In this document: positions 7,040 through 51,619 of the stretch, piece by piece | Layout: every line of letters begins with the position of its first letter | Numbering within the stretch: the stretch's first letter is position 1 | Source: Gemmatimonadaceae bacterium | GTDB taxonomy: Bacteria; Gemmatimonadota; Gemmatimonadetes; Gemmatimonadales; Gemmatimonadaceae | Direction of reading: 5' to 3' | DNA length: 64,000 nucleotides | Assembly: GCA_036003045.1 (NCBI GenBank) | Contig: DASYSS010000002.1 | Coordinates: forward strand, 1 to 64,000 | Made by a program: the position numbers and the translations under genes | The notes under the pieces: model-generated | Database searches by the model: none | Told to the model about the DNA's origin: nothing | What the model saw: only the letters and a program-made list of their open reading frames with translations

Positions 7040-7681
7040 ATGCGCGGGCGACGTTCGCTGATCGCGCTGGCGCTGGCTGCCGCACCCGCGTGGGCACTCG
7101 CCCAGGGCGGAAGCACCGCGTCGTCGGCGTTTGGCTCTCTCGAAAAGGTCGCCGAAGCGCGCGCCGCCAAGAAGATCAGCCAGCGCTTCGATCCGGCCTT
7201 CAAGAAATACTCGAAGCGATACTTCGGCTCGGCGTTCGACTGGCGCTACTTCAAGGCGCAGGGGTTCGCCGAGAGTGAGCTCAAGCCCGACGCGACGAGT
7301 TGGGTCGGCGCGCGCGGCGTGATGCAGCTCATGCCGTCGACGTATCAGCAGATCGCGTCGCACCGCCCGGAGTTCGGCGCGATCGATCAGCCCGATTGGA
7401 ACATCGCGGCCGGCATCCTCCACGACCGCGATCTATGGCAGCTCTGGGCCAACATTCCAGAAGCCGAGCGATACCACTTCATGTTCGCGAGCTACAACGC
7501 CGGCGAGGGCACGATCGGCCGCGCGCTCGCGGTGGCGAAGCAGACGTCTCCCGAGCCCGCGTGGGCCAACATCGAGCTCATCGCCCCACGCGTGCAGCGG
7601 TGGCGATACAGCGAGACGCTCGGCTACGTGCGACGAATCGACTCCACGTACTTTCGGCTGACGAATCCGTTCGCGCCCTAG
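7040..7681 (+). CDS. Exported lytic transglycosylase, SLT/GH23 type (copy B)
   Basis: This 213-residue protein has an N-terminal signal peptide (MRGRRSLIALALAAAPAWALAQ) split by a short linker from an SLT domain. The catalytic Glu78 lies in the same FKAQGFAES context as copy A, followed by GARGVMQLMP and FASYNAG. The two enzymes share long identical stretches but differ in the linker, which is proline-rich only in copy A. It should cleave the glycan strands of peptidoglycan in the periplasm. The gene ends 6 nt before the 3' end of the convergent M24 peptidase gene. Confidence 0.9.
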   Translation: MRGRRSLIALALAAAPAWALAQGGSTASSAFGSLEKVAEARAAKKISQRFDPAFKKYSKRYFGSAFDWRYFKAQGFAESELKPDATSWVGARGVMQLMPSTYQQIASHRPEFGAIDQPDWNIAAGILHDRDLWQLWANIPEAERYHFMFASYNAGEGTIGRALAVAKQTSPEPAWANIELIAPRVQRWRYSETLGYVRRIDSTYFRLTNPFAP

Positions 7682-7687
7682 CGCGGG

Positions 7688-8932
7688 CTAGACAGGGCGG
7701 TCGATCGCCGGGCTCCTCGGCGTGAACATCTGCGGGCCGCTCTCCGTGATGTGCAGGCAGTCCTCCAAGCGAATTCCGAACTCGCCGTAGATCGCGATCG
7801 TCGGCTCGTCGCTGAAGCACATTCCGGGCTGGATCTTCGTCGTGTTGCCCTTCACGAAGTTCGTCCACTCGTGGCCGTCGACGCCGATGCCGTGGCCGGT
7901 GCGGTGCGGCAGACCGGGCACCTTGTAGCCCGGACCGAATCCGGCGTCGGTGATCACCTTCCTGGCCGCGGCGTCGACCGACTCGCACGTCGCGCCTACC
8001 TGCGCCGCGTTGAACGCCGCCTCCTGCGCGCGCTTTTCGGTCTCCCAGACGTCGCGCTGACGCTGCGTCGGTTTGCCGAACACCGTCGTGCGCGTGATGT
8101 CGGAAGTGTAGCCGTCCACTGTGCATCCCGCGTCGACGAGCACGACGTCGCCATCGCGAAGCGTCTGCGGCTGGATGCTGCCGTGGGGGAAAGCCGTGTA
8201 CTTCCCGAAGATGACGAGCGCGCCGTCGCTCACGCCGCCGAGCCGTTGCGTCACCGACGCGACGCTCGCCGACACGTCTCGCTGCGTCATTCCCGGCTTG
8301 AGCGCCTTGAGCGTCGCGCCGATCGCCTGCAGCGTGATCTCATTCGCGTGCTTCATCAGGGCGATCTCGGCGGGCGACTTGATCATGCGGCATCCGGCGG
8401 TCACCGGGGTCGCGATCACGTACTGCGCGCTGGGGAAGCGTTGCCGCACGCCGTCGGCGATGAAGAAGCGGACGCGTTCCTCCATTCCGACCTTTCCGTT
8501 CGTGACACCGCGATCCTTGAGGATGCCGGCGATCACCTGAAACGGACTCTCGTCCTCCTGCCAGACGCGGACGTCGTTCGAGAACTTGATCAGTTCACGA
8601 GCCCGCTCCTCCTCGAACGCGGGCGTGACCCACGCGAGCTCACCCTTGGCGGGGATCACCACGCCGAACGTGCGCTCGCTGTTCCCCCAATGCACGCCGG
8701 TGAAGTACACCATGCTCGACCCGCCCTCGAGAAACATCGCGTCGATTCCGTTCTCCGTCATCAGCCGCCGCGCCTTCTCGATGCGCGCTCGCCGCTCGTC
8801 GTCGGTGATCGAGGGCGGTTTCGCCTGAAGCGTAATACCCTCGAGCGCTGGCAACTCGAGCGCTCCGGTGCTTGCCGCGGCTACGGCGCCGAGCGTGGTC
8901 GCGGAGCGAGAAACGAAAGACCGTCTGTCCAT
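7688..8932 (-). CDS. Tat-exported M24 family metallopeptidase (Xaa-Pro aminopeptidase-like)
   Basis: The 414-residue protein opens with a twin-arginine signal (DRRSFVSRS followed by an Ala-rich hydrophobic stretch). A creatinase/prolidase N-terminal domain and a C-terminal pita-bread M24 domain follow. Metal ligands are seen in DAGCTVDGYTSD (two Asp), GHGIGVDGHEW (His), a Glu in the FSDEP region and a Glu near the end in RLEDCLHITESG. The family releases N-terminal residues that precede proline. The gene lies 26 nt downstream of a prolyl-specific S9 peptidase on the same strand, so the pair may work together on proline-containing peptides in the periplasm. Confidence 0.9.
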   Translation of the reverse strand: MDRRSFVSRSATTLGAVAAASTGALELPALEGITLQAKPPSITDDERRARIEKARRLMTENGIDAMFLEGGSSMVYFTGVHWGNSERTFGVVIPAKGELAWVTPAFEEERARELIKFSNDVRVWQEDESPFQVIAGILKDRGVTNGKVGMEERVRFFIADGVRQRFPSAQYVIATPVTAGCRMIKSPAEIALMKHANEITLQAIGATLKALKPGMTQRDVSASVASVTQRLGGVSDGALVIFGKYTAFPHGSIQPQTLRDGDVVLVDAGCTVDGYTSDITRTTVFGKPTQRQRDVWETEKRAQEAAFNAAQVGATCESVDAAARKVITDAGFGPGYKVPGLPHRTGHGIGVDGHEWTNFVKGNTTKIQPGMCFSDEPTIAIYGEFGIRLEDCLHITESGPQMFTPRSPAIDRPV

Positions 8933-43896: not shown

Positions 43897-44472
43897 ATGA
43901 CCACGCCTCTCGAGCTCACCGCAGCGAAGACCGCGCTCGTCGTCATCGACCTTCAGGCGGGAATCCTCGCTCGACACGTGGCGCCGCACGCCGGCGCCGA
44001 CGTCCTCGACCGCTCCGCCAAGATGTGCGCGCACTTTCGCGCCGCCGGCGCGCAGCTCGTGCTGGTGCGAGTCTCATTCGCCGCGGACGGCTCCGACGCG
44101 CTGTCTCAGCCCTGCGACGAGCTGGTGGCACGCGCGAGACCGGATGGATGGGACGTACTCTCTCCAGCCCTCGGTGCCGGCGAGCGCGACATCCACATCA
44201 CCAAGCACCAATGGGGGGCGTTCTACGGCACCGAGCTGGATCTACAGCTGCGGCGCCGCGGAATCACCACGCTCGTGATGTGCGGCATCTCGACCAATTT
44301 CGGCGTCGAGTCCACGGCACGCGACGGGTGGGAGCGCGGCTACTCGATCGTGTTCGCGGAAGACGCGATGGCGAGCTTTGACGCCGCCGCGCACGCGTTC
44401 GCGGTGAAGAACATCTTCGTCCGGATCGGCCGCGTGCGATCGACGGACGAAATACTCGCCGCGCTGTCGTGA
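43897..44472 (+). CDS. Isochorismatase-family (cysteine) hydrolase
   Basis: The 191-residue protein shows the catalytic triad of the family: Asp18 in VVIDLQAG, Lys103 in TKHQWGAF and Cys129 in MCGISTNFG. That geometry fits nicotinamidase/isochorismatase-like amidohydrolases. The GTNFGV context resembles many uncharacterised bacterial hydrolases, so no substrate is assigned. It lies 10 nt upstream of the CNB/thioredoxin-reductase fusion gene, so both are probably expressed together. Confidence 0.88.
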   Translation: MTTPLELTAAKTALVVIDLQAGILARHVAPHAGADVLDRSAKMCAHFRAAGAQLVLVRVSFAADGSDALSQPCDELVARARPDGWDVLSPALGAGERDIHITKHQWGAFYGTELDLQLRRRGITTLVMCGISTNFGVESTARDGWERGYSIVFAEDAMASFDAAAHAFAVKNIFVRIGRVRSTDEILAALS

Positions 44473-44482
44473 GCGACGACCG

Positions 44483-46228
44483 ATGATCACCGGAGAGCTG
44501 CTCACCGAGATTCCACTGTTCGCGGGACTGCCGCCGAACGAGCGAGAGTCGCTCGCCGCGCGTGCGGCCGACGTGCGTCTGCGTCAGGGCGAATGGCTGC
44601 AGATGGAAGGGCAGGCTCCGGCGTTCTTCGCGCTCCTCGAAGGCGAGCTTGCCGTCTTCAAGTCGGTCACGGGGCGCGACACGCGCATCCACACCCACAC
44701 GCCGGGGTCGTACTTCGGCGAAGTGCCGCTCCTGCTCGGCGCTCCGTCGATCTCCAGCGTGCAGGCGACCGTTCCCTCGCGCGTCGTGCGCTTCGACGCG
44801 AACGACTTTCATGAACTGGTGAGCCACTGCCGAGTGCTCAACGGCCAGATCATGAAGACGATGGCCGAACGCGTGGAGTACTTGCAGCACGTCGCGGTCG
44901 ACGAGGGGCAGGTGACGGCGACTCTCATCGGTGACCGAAGCGATGCCGCATCGCACGACCTGCGCGATTTTCTCGCTCGCAACCGCGTCGCGTGCTCTTG
45001 GCTCTCGGCCGACGATCCGGATCTCGAGGCCCGCATTCGCGAACTCGCGCCGGGCGGCAATCTCGCGCAAGCGAACGGACTCGAGCTCTCAAAACTGCCA
45101 GTCGTCGTCCTGGCTGACGGACGCATTCTCGTCGCGCCGACGAACCGGCAGATCGCGGGGTGCGTCGGCCTTCAGATCGAACCGAACTACGAGGAGTACG
45201 ACGTCGTCGTGATCGGCGGCGGCCCGGCCGGGTTGGCGAGCGCCGTCTATGGCGCGTCGGAGGGGCTGCGAACGTTGCTCGTCGAGCGCGAGGCGTGCGG
45301 CGGGCAGGCCGGGACGTCGTCGCGGATCGAGAATTACCTCGGCTTTCCCGCGGGTCTGTCCGGCGACGAGCTGAGCGGACGGGCGCGGCAACAGGCGACC
45401 CGATTCGGCGCGGAGCTTCTCGTCACGCGGTGGACGGATTCCCTCGACCTCGCGTCGGACTCGGGCGAATCAGTTCACCAGGTGACGCTCGACGGAGGCA
45501 ACCCGATCTCCGCCAAGGCGCTCGTGCTGGCGACCGGCGTGCAATGGCGGCGTCTGGACGTTCCGGGCATTGACCGATTCGCTGGGCACGGGGTCTTCTA
45601 CGGCGCCGCCCTGGCGGAGGCGCAGAGCCTTCGCGGAGGGCGCATCCACCTCGTCGGCGGCGGGAATTCGGCCGGCCAGGCGGCCCTCCTTTTCTCCGGC
45701 TACGCCGAGTCGGTCACGATGCTCGTGCGCGGGACATCGCTCGCCGCCAGCATGTCTCAGTATCTCATCGATCAGCTGGCCAGCAAGGACAACGTCACGA
45801 TCGAGACGCGCGCCGAGGTGACGCGGGTGCACGGCGGCGACCGGCTCGAGGCGATAGACGTAAAACGTGTCGGGTCGGAAAAAACTGATCGGCGACCGAC
45901 TGACGCATTGTTCGTCTTCATTGGGGCGCATGCCGCCACCGAGTGGCTTCCGCGCTCGATCATTCGAGACAAATGGGGTTATGTCTGCACCGGCCGTGAC
46001 GTCATGGATCTCGTTCGAGAACAGGGAGCGGACAAATGGCCGCTCGAACGAGATCCTTTTCTTCTCGAGACGAGCGCTTCGGGAGTGTTCGCGGCCGGCG
46101 ACGTTCGCCACGGATCGGTCAAGCGGGTGGCGTCCGCGGTCGGCGAAGGGAGCATGGCGATCGCGTTCGTTCATCAGTATCTCGCCGAGCCGGTCGGGGT
46201 CGGCGTGCGGCGGGGATCCGCCAAGTAG
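44483..46228 (+). CDS. Three-domain fusion: cyclic-nucleotide-binding domain, thioredoxin-like domain, FAD/NADPH thioredoxin-reductase fold
   Basis: The 581-residue protein starts with a CRP/CNB-type beta-roll (about 1-135, FFALLEGELAVF and PGSYFGEVPLLLGAP). A thioredoxin/glutaredoxin-like module follows (about 145-235, DFLARNRVACSW and LPVVVLADGRIL), then a thioredoxin-reductase fold with VVIGGGPAGLASAVYGASEG for FAD, VGGGNSAGQA for NADPH and GVFAAGDV. In classical enzymes the redox CxxC follows the GVSY-like segment; here the segment reads GVFYGAALAEA (370-380) and lacks both cysteines. It may be a cNMP-responsive flavin oxidoreductase with a changed function. It follows the isochorismatase-type gene by 10 nt. 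Confidence 0.88.
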   Translation: MITGELLTEIPLFAGLPPNERESLAARAADVRLRQGEWLQMEGQAPAFFALLEGELAVFKSVTGRDTRIHTHTPGSYFGEVPLLLGAPSISSVQATVPSRVVRFDANDFHELVSHCRVLNGQIMKTMAERVEYLQHVAVDEGQVTATLIGDRSDAASHDLRDFLARNRVACSWLSADDPDLEARIRELAPGGNLAQANGLELSKLPVVVLADGRILVAPTNRQIAGCVGLQIEPNYEEYDVVVIGGGPAGLASAVYGASEGLRTLLVEREACGGQAGTSSRIENYLGFPAGLSGDELSGRARQQATRFGAELLVTRWTDSLDLASDSGESVHQVTLDGGNPISAKALVLATGVQWRRLDVPGIDRFAGHGVFYGAALAEAQSLRGGRIHLVGGGNSAGQAALLFSGYAESVTMLVRGTSLAASMSQYLIDQLASKDNVTIETRAEVTRVHGGDRLEAIDVKRVGSEKTDRRPTDALFVFIGAHAATEWLPRSIIRDKWGYVCTGRDVMDLVREQGADKWPLERDPFLLETSASGVFAAGDVRHGSVKRVASAVGEGSMAIAFVHQYLAEPVGVGVRRGSAK

Positions 46229-46233
46229 GCCCG

Positions 46234-47811
46234 ATGCGTAGACGGGCCACGCTCCTTTCGGTGAGTCTGGCGGTCATCGCTCTGGCGGTGGCGTCGTGCG
46301 GCCGCGACGACGGGACGAAGGCGTCGAAGTACGTGCCGCAGCAGGTTGGAGAGATCGCCGGCGTGTCCGCGGAAATGGTTCAAGCCGCGATCGAGGCGCG
46401 CGTCGACAGCGCGAAACCGCCGAGCTGGGTCACGCCCGATCGTTGGAGAAAGGTGCAGGCGCTCTACGCGCACTACTCGAACGCGCCGCTCTGGATTCAG
46501 TCCGGCGGGATCAAGGAACGCGCGACCGCTCTGCTCGCGGCGCTCGACTCGGCGCCGTCGCACGCGCTGAAGACCGATCGCTATCCGATCGATTCGATTC
46601 ACAAAGTGGTCGACGCGCAGAAGATCGACAGCGGCGCGACCGCCGCCGACATCGCCAACGCGGACGTGTTGCTCACCGCGGCGTACGTGGGCTACGCGTC
46701 GGACATGCTCGTCGGACAGGTGGATCCGCGCACGGTCTCGCAGTCGTGGTACATCCCGGCGCGTCCGGCCGCGGTGGATTCGGCGCTGGTCAACGCGCTC
46801 GAGGACTCGTCGATGAGTCTCGGCCTCGAGCAGATGGCGCCGCAGGACTCGGAATATGCGGTGCTGCGGCGGGACTACACGCGCTATCGCGGATTCGCGG
46901 CGCAGGGCGGTTGGGCGGAAGTCCCAACGGCTGTGAGCAAAGAAGCGCTGAGATCGAGACTCGAGGCCGAGGGCTACACGATTGCCGCCGACTCGGTCGT
47001 CTCCGCGCTCAAGCAATGGCAGGCGCGCCACGACCTCGTGCCCGACGGGAAGATCGGCAAGGCAACTCTCGCCGCCCTCAACGTGACGGCCGACGAGCGC
47101 GTCGACCAGATCGCGACGAACCTGGAGCGCCACCGCTGGCTGCCGCGGGCGCTGGGGCAGCGCTACGTGTACGTCAACGTTCCGTCGTTCCGGCTCGACG
47201 CGTACGACTCGGGGCAACGCGCTCTGTCGATGCGCGTCATCGTCGGCGCGGACTACAAGGAGAAGTCGACGCCGGTGTTCAGCGACGTGATGCGGACGGT
47301 CGTGTTCCGTCCGTACTGGCGGCCGACCAAGGACATCATCAAGAACGAGATTCTGCCGAAGCTGAAGACCGACACGACGTACATGCGGCGGAACAACATG
47401 GAGTGGGCGACGGAGAACGGCACACGCACGCTGCGCCAGCGACCGGGCCCGAGCAATTCGCTCGGCCTCGTGAAGTTTCTCTTTCCGAACGACTACAACA
47501 TCTATCTGCACGACACGAACGAGAAATCGCTCTTCGGCAAGAGCGTCCGCGCCGAAAGCCACGGGTGCATTCGCGTACAGCATCCCGACTCGCTCGCCGA
47601 ATTCGTGCTTGGCTGGACAGCCGACAGCGTGACGGCCGCGATGCAGGCGGGGAAGGACAACCGCGCGGTCGCGCTGCCGAACAAGCTCCCGGTGTACATC
47701 GTGTACTTCACGGCGTACGCGCGCGATGGCGACCTGCACTTCGCCAACGACGTGTACAAGCGTGATTCCGTGTTCAAGGCGCCGCAGCCCACCGCGCCGA
47801 TCGCTCCCTAG
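46234..47811 (+). CDS. L,D-transpeptidase lipoprotein (YcbB/LdtD type)
   Basis: The start at 46234 gives 525 residues and a lipoprotein signal (ALAVASCG), so the protein sits in the envelope. An N-terminal scaffold region, a peptidoglycan-binding fold (about residues 240-290, WQARHDLVPDGKIGKATLAAL) and a YkuD domain follow. The catalytic motif is SHGCIRV with Cys445. Such enzymes make 3-3 cross-links in peptidoglycan and are insensitive to most beta-lactams. It starts 5 nt after the CNB-reductase gene stop and may be in its operon. An upstream in-frame start would delete the lipobox logic and is not used. Confidence 0.92.
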   Translation: MRRRATLLSVSLAVIALAVASCGRDDGTKASKYVPQQVGEIAGVSAEMVQAAIEARVDSAKPPSWVTPDRWRKVQALYAHYSNAPLWIQSGGIKERATALLAALDSAPSHALKTDRYPIDSIHKVVDAQKIDSGATAADIANADVLLTAAYVGYASDMLVGQVDPRTVSQSWYIPARPAAVDSALVNALEDSSMSLGLEQMAPQDSEYAVLRRDYTRYRGFAAQGGWAEVPTAVSKEALRSRLEAEGYTIAADSVVSALKQWQARHDLVPDGKIGKATLAALNVTADERVDQIATNLERHRWLPRALGQRYVYVNVPSFRLDAYDSGQRALSMRVIVGADYKEKSTPVFSDVMRTVVFRPYWRPTKDIIKNEILPKLKTDTTYMRRNNMEWATENGTRTLRQRPGPSNSLGLVKFLFPNDYNIYLHDTNEKSLFGKSVRAESHGCIRVQHPDSLAEFVLGWTADSVTAAMQAGKDNRAVALPNKLPVYIVYFTAYARDGDLHFANDVYKRDSVFKAPQPTAPIAP

Positions 47812-48478: not shown

Positions 48479-49807
48479 TTAGTGGAGCGCCTGCCGGCTC
48501 TGATCGGGTAGCGCGAAGACGACCGCGGCGGCCGCGATGTAGAACGCCGACGTGAGGCTTAGCGCCGAGACGATCCCGACGTTCGGCACGGCCGCCAGCA
48601 CTCCGATGACGTATGGTGCCAGGGCACCAAGTAGGCGACCGGAGTTGTAGCCGAGTCCTTGCCCGCTTGCGCGAACGGCCGTTGGGAAGAGCTCCGACAT
48701 GAGCGGCGCGGCGACGCTCCAGTAGGCGTGGCCCGCGCACCCCAGGACCGGGCTCAGAAGCAAAAGCAGCGTCGGATGGTGCACGAGCCGACCGTACACC
48801 GGTACCAGAAGGGCGGACGCGGTCACGAACGTGACGAACACTCGCCGACGCCCGAACCGATCGGCGAGCGGGCCGAACGAGAGATAGCCGATGAACGCGC
48901 CTGCCTGAATCGGGATCAGCCAACCGGTCGACTTCACGACGCTCATTCCGGCGCCGCCTTTCTCGATGGGCGACGCGAGAAGATTCGGAAGCCAGAAAAA
49001 CAACCCCCAATACGCGAACTGAAGCAGCGATGCGAGCAGACAGGCGAGCAGCGTCCGCCTGCGAAGCTCGGGGCCGAACAAGACGCGGTAAGGATTCGTC
49101 CGAGCGTGCGGCGACGCTCGAGACGCGCGCCAGAGCTCCGGTTCCTCGACGCGTCGTTGAGCCCACAGCGTGAAGAACGCGGGGAGGCCGCCGAGCGCGA
49201 ACAGCACGCGCCACCCGTGATCGCCGAACGGAAGCACGTCGAGCACCAGACCGGCGAGAACCGCGGCGAGGATCGCGCCGAGGGCCCACGTCGACTGCAT
49301 CGCGCTCGTCGCTTTGTTTCGCAGCTCCGGCCGGATCGATTCGGCGACGAGGACCGCGCCCGACGCCCACTCGCCGCCCATGCCCAGTCCGAGCAACGCC
49401 CGCCAGACCGCGAGCTGCACGACGCTCTGAGACGTCGCCGCGCCGAGCGAGCAAACCGAGTATATGAGAATCGTGATGTTGAGCGCCCGTACGCGGCCGA
49501 TGCGGTCGGCGATCACACCGAAGGACAGGCCGCCGACCGCGGCGCTCACCAGCGTCAGCGTGCCGAGCAATCCGGCGGTGGCGTCACCAAAACCGAAGTA
49601 CGATTTGAGGTGCCCGATGGCCAGCACGTAAATCAGGAAGTCCATCGAGTCGAACATCCAGCCCAGCCCGGCCGCGATGAGGACTCGGCGCTCCGCGAGG
49701 GTGAGCGAGCGGAGCCAGGAGCCCGTCGCGACCAGGCCCGGCGTGGCCGTGACCGCGCCGGCGGCGGGGGTAGCGGCGCCGCCTGCCGCCGCGGTCGACT
49801 CAGTCAT
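48479..49807 (-). CDS. MFS transporter (metabolite:H+ symporter type)
   Basis: The 442-residue protein has about twelve membrane helices. Loop motifs are DRIGRVRAL between helices 2 and 3 and RFGRRRVF in the second half, with GLGMGGEWASGAVLVAES in helix 4. That composition places it near the sugar/aromatic acid/organic acid symporters such as PcaK-like proteins. Its low-complexity N-terminus is Gly/Ala-rich. No catabolic genes lie beside it, so the substrate is unknown. It diverges from the EmrB-like gene with a near-perfect palindrome between them. Confidence 0.86.
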   Translation of the reverse strand: MTESTAAAGGAATPAAGAVTATPGLVATGSWLRSLTLAERRVLIAAGLGWMFDSMDFLIYVLAIGHLKSYFGFGDATAGLLGTLTLVSAAVGGLSFGVIADRIGRVRALNITILIYSVCSLGAATSQSVVQLAVWRALLGLGMGGEWASGAVLVAESIRPELRNKATSAMQSTWALGAILAAVLAGLVLDVLPFGDHGWRVLFALGGLPAFFTLWAQRRVEEPELWRASRASPHARTNPYRVLFGPELRRRTLLACLLASLLQFAYWGLFFWLPNLLASPIEKGGAGMSVVKSTGWLIPIQAGAFIGYLSFGPLADRFGRRRVFVTFVTASALLVPVYGRLVHHPTLLLLLSPVLGCAGHAYWSVAAPLMSELFPTAVRASGQGLGYNSGRLLGALAPYVIGVLAAVPNVGIVSALSLTSAFYIAAAAVVFALPDQSRQALH

Positions 49808-49915: not shown

Positions 49916-49996
49916 ATCGGCGCGATGATTGTAGCATCGGGAGGGTCGGTCAGCGACCCGCCGCGCCGATTCCGGCACCCCATAACGATTGGACTG

Positions 49997-51619
49997 ATGG
50001 CGACATCGGCTGTAGGAAAGCGGACCGCGGGAGCGCGCTTCGAGACGCAAGAGAAGGAGCACGGCGACCACTACCGGTGGATCATCCTGCTCGGCCTGAT
50101 CACGGCCGCGATCATGGAAGTACTCGACACGACGATCATCAACGTCGCGCTCCCGCAGATGGCGGGAAATCTGGGCGCGACGATCCAGGAGATCGCGTGG
50201 GTGAGCACGGGCTACATCCTGTCGAACGTCGTCGTGTTGCCGATGACCGCGTTCTTCACCGCCACGTTCGGGCGACGCAACTATCTGACGGCGTCGATCA
50301 TCATCTTCGTGACGGCGTCATTTCTTTGCGGGACGTCGCATACTCTCGGTGAGCTGATCCTGTGGCGCGTCGTGCAGGGCGCGGGAGGCGCCGCGCTGCT
50401 GTCGACCGCGCAGGCGACGCTGCGACAGATCTTCCCGCGCGAAGAGCAGGGGATGGTGCAGGCGATCTTCATCCTCGGCATCATCGTCGCGCCGACGCTG
50501 GGGCCGACGCTCGGCGGGTGGATCACCGACAACTACAACTGGGGCTGGTGCTTCTTCATCAACGTGCCGATCGGCATCGTCGCCACGTTCCTGGTGACGG
50601 GCTTTCTGCACGATCCGCCGGGAATGCGGAAGAAGCCGCAGGCGATCGACTGGGCGGGCATCTCGCTGCTGACGATCGGTCTCGCGTCGCTTCAGTACGT
50701 GCTCGAGGAAGGGCGCGAGAAGGATTGGTTCAACGACACGCTGATCATTCGGCTGAGCGTCATCGCCGGAGTGTCATTGGCGGGAATGCTCTGGTGGGAA
50801 CTGTCACCGAGGAACAAACACCCGGTAATTGACTTCCACGTCCTCAAGAACCGCGACCTCGCGGGGTCGATCTTCCTCTTCATCGCTCTTGGGTTCGGTC
50901 TGTACGGCGGTGTTTTTCTCTTTCCGCTGTTCACGCAGAATCTGCTGCACTTCACGCCGACCGAGACCGGGCTCACGCTCATGCCCGGCGGCATCGCGAC
51001 CGCCGTGGCGGCGATCATTTGCGGCCGCATGCTGAACGGCGCCAAGCCGATGGTCGACGCGCGCGTGCTGATCTACATCGGCGTGTCGCTGTTCGTCGTC
51101 GCCATGTGGCGGCTTGGGCACCTCACGGTCGATGCCGGCGAACCGGAAGCCCGGTATGCCCTGATCATACGCGGCCTGGGCCTCGGGTTCCTGTTCACGC
51201 CGATCAACAACGTGGCCTACGCGAACCTCAAGCCGAGCCAGGCACAGCAAGCGTCCGGTTTGATCAACCTGGCTCGGCAGTTGGGCGGGTCCTTCGGAAT
51301 CGCCATTATCACGACTTTCCTAGACCATCAGGTCGCGATGCACCGGGCGATGCTGACCGCCAACACGTACATCGAGAACCCGCAACTCGTCGCACGGCAA
51401 AACGCGGCGGTGGCCGGTCTCGTGGCAAAAGGATACTCGGCAGTGCAGGCCAAACAGGGTGCGCTGGCCATCCTCGACGGGGCGCTGATGCGCCAGGCGA
51501 CCATGCTGAGCTACAACGACGCGTGGATGTTGATTTTGGCGACGTTCGTGCTCATCGCCCCGGCGATCCTGATCTTGAGGAAGCCAAGGTCACACGGGCC
51601 GGTGGAGGCGGGGCACTGA
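49997..51619 (+). CDS. DHA2 family (EmrB/QacA) multidrug efflux MFS transporter
   Basis: This 540-residue pump has fourteen membrane helices. Motifs of the drug:H+ antiporter-2 family are present: LDTTIINVALPQMA in helix 1 (with its acidic residue), TATFGRRNYL, and LWRVVQGAGGAALL in helix 4, with GWITDNYNWGWCFFINVP. Start 49997 removes 24 codons of non-conserved sequence. Family members in Gram-negatives often work with an HlyD/EmrA adaptor and TolC. A terminator follows the gene, so the adaptor and TolC genes downstream are probably not in the same transcript, although they could still cooperate. Confidence 0.92.
   Translation: MATSAVGKRTAGARFETQEKEHGDHYRWIILLGLITAAIMEVLDTTIINVALPQMAGNLGATIQEIAWVSTGYILSNVVVLPMTAFFTATFGRRNYLTASIIIFVTASFLCGTSHTLGELILWRVVQGAGGAALLSTAQATLRQIFPREEQGMVQAIFILGIIVAPTLGPTLGGWITDNYNWGWCFFINVPIGIVATFLVTGFLHDPPGMRKKPQAIDWAGISLLTIGLASLQYVLEEGREKDWFNDTLIIRLSVIAGVSLAGMLWWELSPRNKHPVIDFHVLKNRDLAGSIFLFIALGFGLYGGVFLFPLFTQNLLHFTPTETGLTLMPGGIATAVAAIICGRMLNGAKPMVDARVLIYIGVSLFVVAMWRLGHLTVDAGEPEARYALIIRGLGLGFLFTPINNVAYANLKPSQAQQASGLINLARQLGGSFGIAIITTFLDHQVAMHRAMLTANTYIENPQLVARQNAAVAGLVAKGYSAVQAKQGALAILDGALMRQATMLSYNDAWMLILATFVLIAPAILILRKPRSHGPVEAGH

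Follow-up and report, generated by a model that had tools for sequence, protein, structure and literature searches.

A sensor-coupled flavoprotein with a thioredoxin reductase fold and no CxxC motif in a Gemmatimonadaceae bacterium

We analysed a 64,000-nucleotide stretch of a Gemmatimonadaceae bacterium (assembly GCA_036003045.1, contig DASYSS010000002.1, positions 1 to 64,000; hereafter the window), in which an open reading frame (ORF) at 44483-46228 of the forward strand encodes a protein of 581 amino acids without an internal stop. The window protein adds a member to a widespread family of sensor-coupled flavoproteins that have the thioredoxin reductase (TrxR) fold and lack its redox cysteines; the family is known to databases but functionally unexplained. 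A sequence-only reading of the window had singled out this gene, and its observation and coordinates were right: the protein is not an ordinary thioredoxin reductase.

The missing cysteine pair and the loop in its place

At the site of the CxxC motif, the window protein reads GVFYGAALAEA (residues 370-380), whereas a separate canonical TrxR of the same genome (L083, contig C27, motif CAICDG) reads GVSYCAICDGA. Cys was found at neither of the two CxxC positions in any of 123 family proteins, the window protein included. Because similarity to the window protein was the basis of their selection, these relatives are a non-random sample of TrxR-fold proteins; matches with E >1e-10, frames of <150 amino acids, matches ending before query residue 400, and the canonical L083 were excluded. 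A CxxC string occurs anywhere in only three of these core sequences, and in none at the two sites. In the canonical control, 29/30 loci showed CxxC (L142 was unread), and 28 of the 29 were aligned (L137 was left out). The active-site stretch of the glutaredoxin-like module aligned as S-D-A-A-S, also without CxxC. The alignments thus confirmed both absences, which had been read from the window alone.

Pfam assigned cNMP_binding to residues 31-114 (E 4.6e-15) and Pyr_redox_2 to residues 239-556 (E 3.1e-34). The glutaredoxin-like module received no Pfam call in the window protein, and a weak Glutaredoxin match (PF00462) was observed in 3/5 relatives scanned; this domain was assigned from the full-length model and the relatives. 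The parts of the gene are as follows.

44483..46228, + strand: whole gene, CRP-type domain, glutaredoxin-like domain and TrxR-fold flavoprotein, 581 residues, without CxxC (ORF, Pfam, alignment, model)
44483..44902, + strand: CRP-type N-terminal domain with the cyclic nucleoside monophosphate (cNMP) fold, residues 1-140 (Pfam PF00027; the PDB matches are regulatory subunits of protein kinase A, PKA)
44717..44761, + strand: region of the phosphate-binding cassette, G79-V93 (GEVPLLLGAPSISSV), Glu retained and the Arg of PKA replaced by S89 (alignment with PKA RI-alpha)
44915..45178, + strand: glutaredoxin/thioredoxin-like domain without CxxC, about residues 145-232 (order of strands and helices in the model; PF00462 in relatives; alignment)
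45191..46186, + strand: TrxR-fold unit for flavin adenine dinucleotide (FAD) and NADPH, residues 237-568 (PF07992; superposition on PDB structures)
45215..45232, + strand: FAD dinucleotide-binding motif GGGPAG, residues 245-250 (G245, G247, P248 and G250 invariant, n=34 sequences)
45590..45622, + strand: GVFYGAALAEA, residues 370-380, at the site of the TrxR CxxC-Asp (alignments)
45656..45676, + strand: NAD(P)H-binding motif GGGNSAG, residues 392-398 (G392 and N395-G398 invariant, n=34 sequences)
45749..45766, + strand: family signature SMSQYL, residues 423-428, adjoining the canonical HRRxxxRA stretch (alignments)
46121..46126, + strand: K547-R548 (alignment; R548 is Arg in 123/123 family proteins and Gln in 28/28 canonical TrxRs)

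The motifs together with the predicted fold point to a TrxR-type FAD- and NAD(P)H-binding fold, and the invariance of the motif positions in 34 sequences agrees with the earlier view that both cofactor sites are intact. The window protein shares with low-molecular-weight TrxB the fold, the FAD motif, the NADPH motif and the GD motif. It differs from TrxB in the lost CxxC, in a loop one residue longer than in the 28 canonical TrxRs, in Glu379 in place of Asp, in Arg548 in place of Gln, and in retaining only R416 of the HRR...R set. In canonical TrxRs, the counterparts of E379, HRR...R and R548 are the acid catalyst, the binding site of the NADPH phosphate, and a position at the flavin, respectively. 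The score against the NCBIfam model for TrxR, TIGR01292, was 200.2 bits, below the curated cut-off of 343.45.

The substitute loop (Y-G-A-A-x-x-E) is itself conserved, with Y373 in 121, A375 in 118 and E379 in 117 of the 123 proteins. The first canonical Cys aligns with G374 (Gly in 107, Ala in 11), the second with position 378 (Thr or Ser in 97/123), and the following Asp with E379. Because Cys is absent from all 123 proteins while the rest of the site is conserved, the absence is not a chance loss or decay. A decayed pseudogene or a sequencing error at the motif is accordingly refuted by the open frame, the invariant cofactor motifs, and the lack of Cys at the site in 123/123 proteins from many bacterial groups.

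We also considered a hidden cysteine pair. The five Cys residues of the window protein (116, 171, 227, 272 and 502) include no two within four residues of each other, and the best conserved of them is Cys in just 23/123 relatives; being unpaired in the sequence and poorly conserved, they do not appear to form such a pair. A Cys shortly after the active-site loop, at the position of window residue 383, is present in 70/123 family proteins and is Leu in the window protein.

Family, input domains and candidate partners

A contig scan yielded 524 candidate relatives, of which the best 80 were used. The record titles of these 80 name Gemmatimonadetes, Betaproteobacteria, Eremiobacterota, Chloroflexi, Acidobacteria and cyanobacteria, and further genera among them presumably belong to Bacteroidetes, Alphaproteobacteria and Actinobacteria. 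A family member also occurs on Deinococcus plasmids. Among the 40 plasmid rows listed from PLSDB, six carry the product name 'cyclic nucleotide-binding domain-containing thioredoxin-disulfide reductase', 14 'FAD-dependent oxidoreductase' and two 'hypothetical protein', and the others have no usable annotation; the best relatives among these rows reach 51.9% identity across 98% of the length. The window protein has the CRP-type, glutaredoxin-like and TrxR-fold units and the Y-[GA]-A-x-x-x-E type loop of the database CNB-TrxR family, and we observed no essential difference between the two architectures. The database name 'thioredoxin-disulfide reductase', however, asserts an activity that the family sequence does not support.

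Possible fragmentary or duplicated copies were observed in two records. In a Cupriavidus campinensis record (W01), which also contains fuller copies at other positions, two overlapping partial family matches (L169, 757809-758666; L170, 758600-759424) resemble one broken copy. At the contig end in L007, the family gene is directly followed by a further CRP-type frame (about 7506-8457), which scores 146 bits on the family CRP-type profile and is perhaps a tandem copy.

By profile, the N-terminus is of CRP type in 54 of the 123 proteins, a response-regulator receiver in 67, and neither in two. In a tree with a single outgroup sequence, the window protein falls in a CRP-type clade of 36 members (support 0.999), and 66/67 receiver proteins together with one unassigned protein form a second clade (support 0.969), outside which the remaining receiver protein (L125) is placed. 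With a support of 0.118, the other 18 CRP-type members (CRP-type B group) perhaps do not form a clade. The phospho-acceptor Asp is kept in 66/67 receivers, with a gap in the remaining one. The genome of the window itself encodes a receiver-type, cysteine-less paralogue on contig C7 (L130, 6613-8910). Within the phylum, a close relative of the canonical TrxR L083 was found in 54/61 genomes and the cysteine-less family in 50/249; the cysteine-less family is therefore accessory.

The arginine of the phosphate-binding cassette is required for, and defines, receptors of cAMP and cGMP, and the cassette glutamate binds the ribose. Both Pfam and the PDB matches to PKA regulatory subunits indicate a cyclic-nucleotide-binding fold in the window protein, but the phosphate-binding Arg is missing: in the phmmer alignment with PKA RI-alpha, S89 stands at its place. 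In that column, none of the 54 CRP-type members has Arg, although Arg occurs within one position in 3/54 and two positions earlier in 14/54; the glutamate column holds Glu in 45 and Asp in nine. Classical gating by cAMP or cGMP is unlikely because the Arg is absent from the aligned column in 54/54 members. The suggestion of a cNMP-gated flavin enzyme was thus not borne out, and these residues mark the N-terminal domain as CRP-like, though it probably does not act as a classical receptor of cAMP or cGMP.

Two candidate partners emerged from the gene neighbourhoods, for which all counts are lower bounds and the stretches compared differ in length. The first is a histidine kinase. The kinase gene on contig C7 (8910-10322) adjoins that of the paralogue, the stop and start codons overlapping by one base, and its product has a CRP-like N-terminus, to which PF00027 gave no Pfam call at E 0.01. 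A similar kinase was found at 52/67 receiver loci versus 2/53 CRP-type loci. A CRP-like domain stands at the N-terminus of many of these kinases, the alignment to the own-genome kinase extending into it in 37/49. The family CRP-type profile scored a median of 82.5 bits on the kinase frames; a specific kinship of their CRP-like domain to that of the window protein was rejected, since an ordinary CRP-like protein encoded in that genome scored 74.9 bits.

The second is a stand-alone UBP zinc finger, encoded near 17/122 loci. Among 249 genomes of the phylum, 50 had the family and 51 the finger; both occurred together in 35, the family alone in 15, the finger alone in 16 and neither in 183 (Fisher p 8.6e-19, with genomes treated as independent). 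Counted per genus (n=112; 21, 12, 10 and 69 in the same order), the association was weaker (p 1.3e-7). The finger lies within 2.5 kb of 15/59 family genes in the phylum genomes; in the genome of the window, it sits on a different contig from the window gene. On plasmids of Rhodococcus, Streptomyces and Nocardia (L103, L104 and L105), the order is grpE, a dnaJ-type gene, cbpM, clpB, trxA, the UBP finger and the family gene. The trxA products of these plasmids have Cys pairs ahead of the thioredoxin fold, and two of the plasmids carry a DUF1931 gene after the family gene. A literature search found neither the kinase pairing nor the UBP zinc-finger association of this family. Both associations provide concrete candidate partners of the family.

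Proposed mechanism and competing readings

Our preferred but tentative reading, which we hold to be somewhat less than probable on sequence and model evidence, is that the window protein is a sensor-gated dimeric NAD(P)H flavin reductase whose acceptor is something other than an internal dithiol. The dimeric enzyme would rest in a geometry like the flavin-reducing (FR) state of TrxR, in which a hydride could pass from NAD(P)H to FAD, and the reduced FAD would then deliver electrons directly to the acceptor, which could be a protein partner or else a small compound, for example O2 or a quinone. Glu379 is a candidate proton donor, and R548 may stabilise the reduced flavin. The CRP-type domain would serve as an input module gating electron release, perhaps through a TrxR-like domain rotation, with an input signal that is probably neither cAMP nor cGMP. 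Members of the sister clade would instead take their input from a receiver domain, which the neighbouring kinase probably phosphorylates. The cysteine-free glutaredoxin-like domain may be a spacer or a docking unit.

An AlphaFold2 model of the window protein (34-sequence alignment, predicted local distance difference test score (pLDDT) 88) is consistent with this reading. Its first Foldseek row was AhpF (4xvg, 451 columns). Its TrxR unit superposed at 1.8-2.8 A on 3cty, 5mh4 (titled FR), 3r9u, 5vt3, 5usx and 1f6m, the last being a complex of TrxR, thioredoxin and AADP+, and at 5.6-7.4 A on 5w4c and 5mjk (both titled flavin-oxidising, FO), 1trb, 2q7v and 1vdc. The control, the CxxC-bearing TrxR of the same genome (28 relatives, pLDDT 83.6), showed the opposite preference, with 2.7-2.8 A to 1trb (2.7), 5mjk (2.8), 2q7v and 1vdc and 4.9 A to 5w4c, but 8.0-8.4 A to 3cty (8.0), 5mh4 (8.1), 1f6m (8.1), 3r9u (8.4) and 5vt3. 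Among these structures, the state is named in the titles of 5mh4, 5w4c and 5mjk. The window protein is thus predicted to be FR-like and the canonical TrxR of the same genome FO-like. An FR-like geometry would suit hydride transfer from NADPH to FAD without a Cys relay, as the enzyme lacks a dithiol that could face the flavin.

AhpF likewise has a thioredoxin-fold domain ahead of the TrxR fold. The N-terminus of AhpF comprises two thioredoxin-fold domains, whereas the window protein has a single one, CxxC in neither unit, and an added CRP-type domain.

Several points weigh against the flavin reductase reading. On the structural side, the AlphaFold domain geometry is a prediction, the comparison used the best model out of five, the window protein (full length, 34 sequences) and the control (TrxR unit, 28 sequences) were unmatched in length and alignment, and the flavin-side loop 280-284 has a pLDDT <50. 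On the genomic side, thioredoxin (WCxPC) genes adjoin the family gene in the three actinobacterial plasmid operons, and on a Gloeocapsa plasmid (L107, 3814-6350) an annotated thioredoxin-domain gene, a DsbA-family gene and a family member with neither a CRP-type nor a receiver domain stand in a row; such neighbours suit a thiol role. On the biochemical side, ATII-TrxR, an enzyme from a Red Sea brine pool, is reported to reduce 5,5'-dithiobis-(2-nitrobenzoic acid) (DTNB) with a kcat of 5.63 per s and to support thioredoxin-dependent reduction of insulin, with a Km of 1.03 uM for its own thioredoxin and a kcat of 28.4 per s (PMC6544261).

The relationship of ATII-TrxR to the family is therefore central. 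According to PMC6544261, it has 552 amino acids, of which 28-146 form the Crp domain and 234-522 TrxB, is 87% identical to Cupriavidus metallidurans WP_011516654.1, and is a dimer with FAD that uses NADPH (Km 5.21 uM) and also NADH; its redox centres in a structural model are stated to be Cys206-Cys223 and Cys376-Cys467. The use of NADH would suit the thinned-out Arg set at the site of the NADPH phosphate. The megaplasmid member from C. metallidurans, which shares 37.1% identity with the window protein, reads GVYYWASPVEAKLC without CxxC, and its Cys 187, 204 and 357 (inner-Met numbering, FAD motif at 223) correspond to ATII Cys206, Cys223 and Cys376 at a single offset of 19. Two more Cupriavidus members share the same three Cys, and the Cupriavidus members read GVYYWASPVEAKLC or GVYYWATPIEARLC, all without CxxC; ATII Cys467 has no such match in them. 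Because its domain limits agree with these members, as does the spacing of three of the four Cys named as redox centres, ATII-TrxR very probably belongs to the cysteine-less family, and the Cys found at position 383 in 70/123 proteins appears to line up with its Cys376. It resembles the window protein in combining a Crp-type domain with the TrxR fold, but differs in the Cys after the active-site loop, and the nearest Cupriavidus members are remote relatives of the window protein.

These data bear on the rival view that the family is a true thioredoxin or disulfide reductase working by an unusual route, in which the reduced flavin, or a Cys from another part of the protein or from a partner, reduces the thioredoxin disulfide. 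Its backing comes from the ATII kinetics with thioredoxin, DTNB and NADPH (PMC6544261), from the fit of the three ATII Cys to Cupriavidus members that lack CxxC, and from the trxA, clpB, dnaJ-type, grpE and UBP zinc-finger genes sharing an operon with the family gene on the three actinobacterial plasmids. In the window protein, however, Leu stands at the positions of ATII Cys206 (L210) and Cys376 (L383), and only Cys223 has a retained counterpart, C227; trxA was found by BLAST near just 3/122 loci, besides the one annotated thioredoxin-domain gene. Moreover, the accessible text of PMC6544261 describes neither a Cys mutant nor a TrxR-deficient host, so that carry-over of host TrxR is possible, and the terms 'CxxC' and 'control' have no occurrence in its main text. 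The reported activity may reflect either disulfide reduction without CxxC or a carried-over host enzyme. Activity on thioredoxin, which the sequence-only reading had named as evidence against itself, is thus reported, but in a probable distant relative; the window protein may use another electron acceptor, as that reading had suggested. We consider the thiol route unlikely for the window protein. A literature search for such fusions found PMC6544261 as their sole description; passages of PMC8945050 and PMC13332983 gave nothing about a cysteine-less TrxR-fold family.

To our knowledge, TrxR-like ferredoxin/flavodoxin-NADP reductases (FNRs) and IruO have no N-terminal sensor and no glutaredoxin-like domain. 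They resemble the window protein in having a TrxR fold without CxxC, and according to the introduction of PMC10294844, TrxR-like FNRs lack this motif and many were first annotated as TrxR, which is a precedent for the present case. The view that the window protein is a sensor-controlled FNR of the TrxR type finds further support in the match of the model to FNR2 (8c16, Z 27.9, 3.0 A across 304). The sequence is nevertheless nearer to TrxR and AhpF, the PDB search giving E 2.8e-38 for TrxR versus 8.9e-16 for the best chain named FNR. Furthermore, the FAD-stacking residue of FNRs (His, Val, Tyr or Phe in the C-terminal helix; residue 326 in FNR2) has no aligned counterpart, the alignment ending before it (window 572 = FNR2 321), and the nine-residue C-terminal tail of the window protein is poorly predicted. 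No conserved ferredoxin or flavodoxin neighbour was observed, Fer4 domains being present in only 2/80 neighbour ORFs. An FNR function is accordingly rather improbable in our estimation.

The window protein might instead be a non-catalytic NAD(P)H/flavin redox sensor, whose TrxR fold would monitor the NADPH pool and pass the signal on via partners or via the sensor domain. Such a role would explain why neither the TrxR nor the glutaredoxin-like unit has a catalytic Cys, and the fusions to signalling domains and the nearby kinases are in keeping with it. We judge it quite unlikely, as the active-site loop, together with E379 and R548, shows enzyme-like conservation, the TrxR fold occupies the place of the output domain in the receiver fusions, and ATII-TrxR is reported to turn over NADPH (PMC6544261).

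A more speculative two-part arrangement, to which we give little credence, would assign the Cys-rich stand-alone UBP-type zinc finger the role of the missing thiol relay or of an acceptor adaptor, with the CRP-type or phospho-receiver input timing the release of electrons from NADPH. Such an arrangement would agree with the thioredoxin activity reported for ATII-TrxR only on condition that a partner of this kind was present in the enzyme preparation. If the acceptor is indeed something other than a dithiol, as in the preferred flavin reductase reading, annotations as 'thioredoxin-disulfide reductase' mislead; if thioredoxin is the acceptor, the textbook requirement for CxxC can be bypassed.

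Immediate neighbours of the window gene

The two flanking genes are those already named in the sequence-only reading, and both coordinates and Pfam agree with it.

43897..44472, + strand: isochorismatase-type hydrolase, upstream neighbour, not a conserved part (PF00857)
46234..47811, + strand: L,D-transpeptidase lipoprotein, downstream neighbour, not a conserved part (PF03734, PF20142)

The upstream gene ends 10 nt before, and the downstream gene starts 5 nt after, the gene of the window protein. A conserved operon with either of them was rejected, since the neighbours differ in the loci compared: the isochorismatase gave one weak match, near one other locus (L015), and the L,D-transpeptidase gave no match in the other loci compared. 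In the CRP-type A clade, a scan of neighbour ORFs of at least 100 amino acids (80 of 124 candidates; small genes such as that of the UBP finger near L002 fall below this length) revealed no enriched Pfam family, none occurring in more than two of the 80 ORFs from 24 loci. Beside an orthologue with 64% identity (L088), the neighbouring frames resemble by eye a MarR-type regulator, a DoxX-like protein and a TonB-receptor-like protein. Within the window, two transporter-like frames, by eye of the major facilitator superfamily type, lie near the locus at 48479-49807 on the reverse strand and at 49925-51619 on the forward strand.

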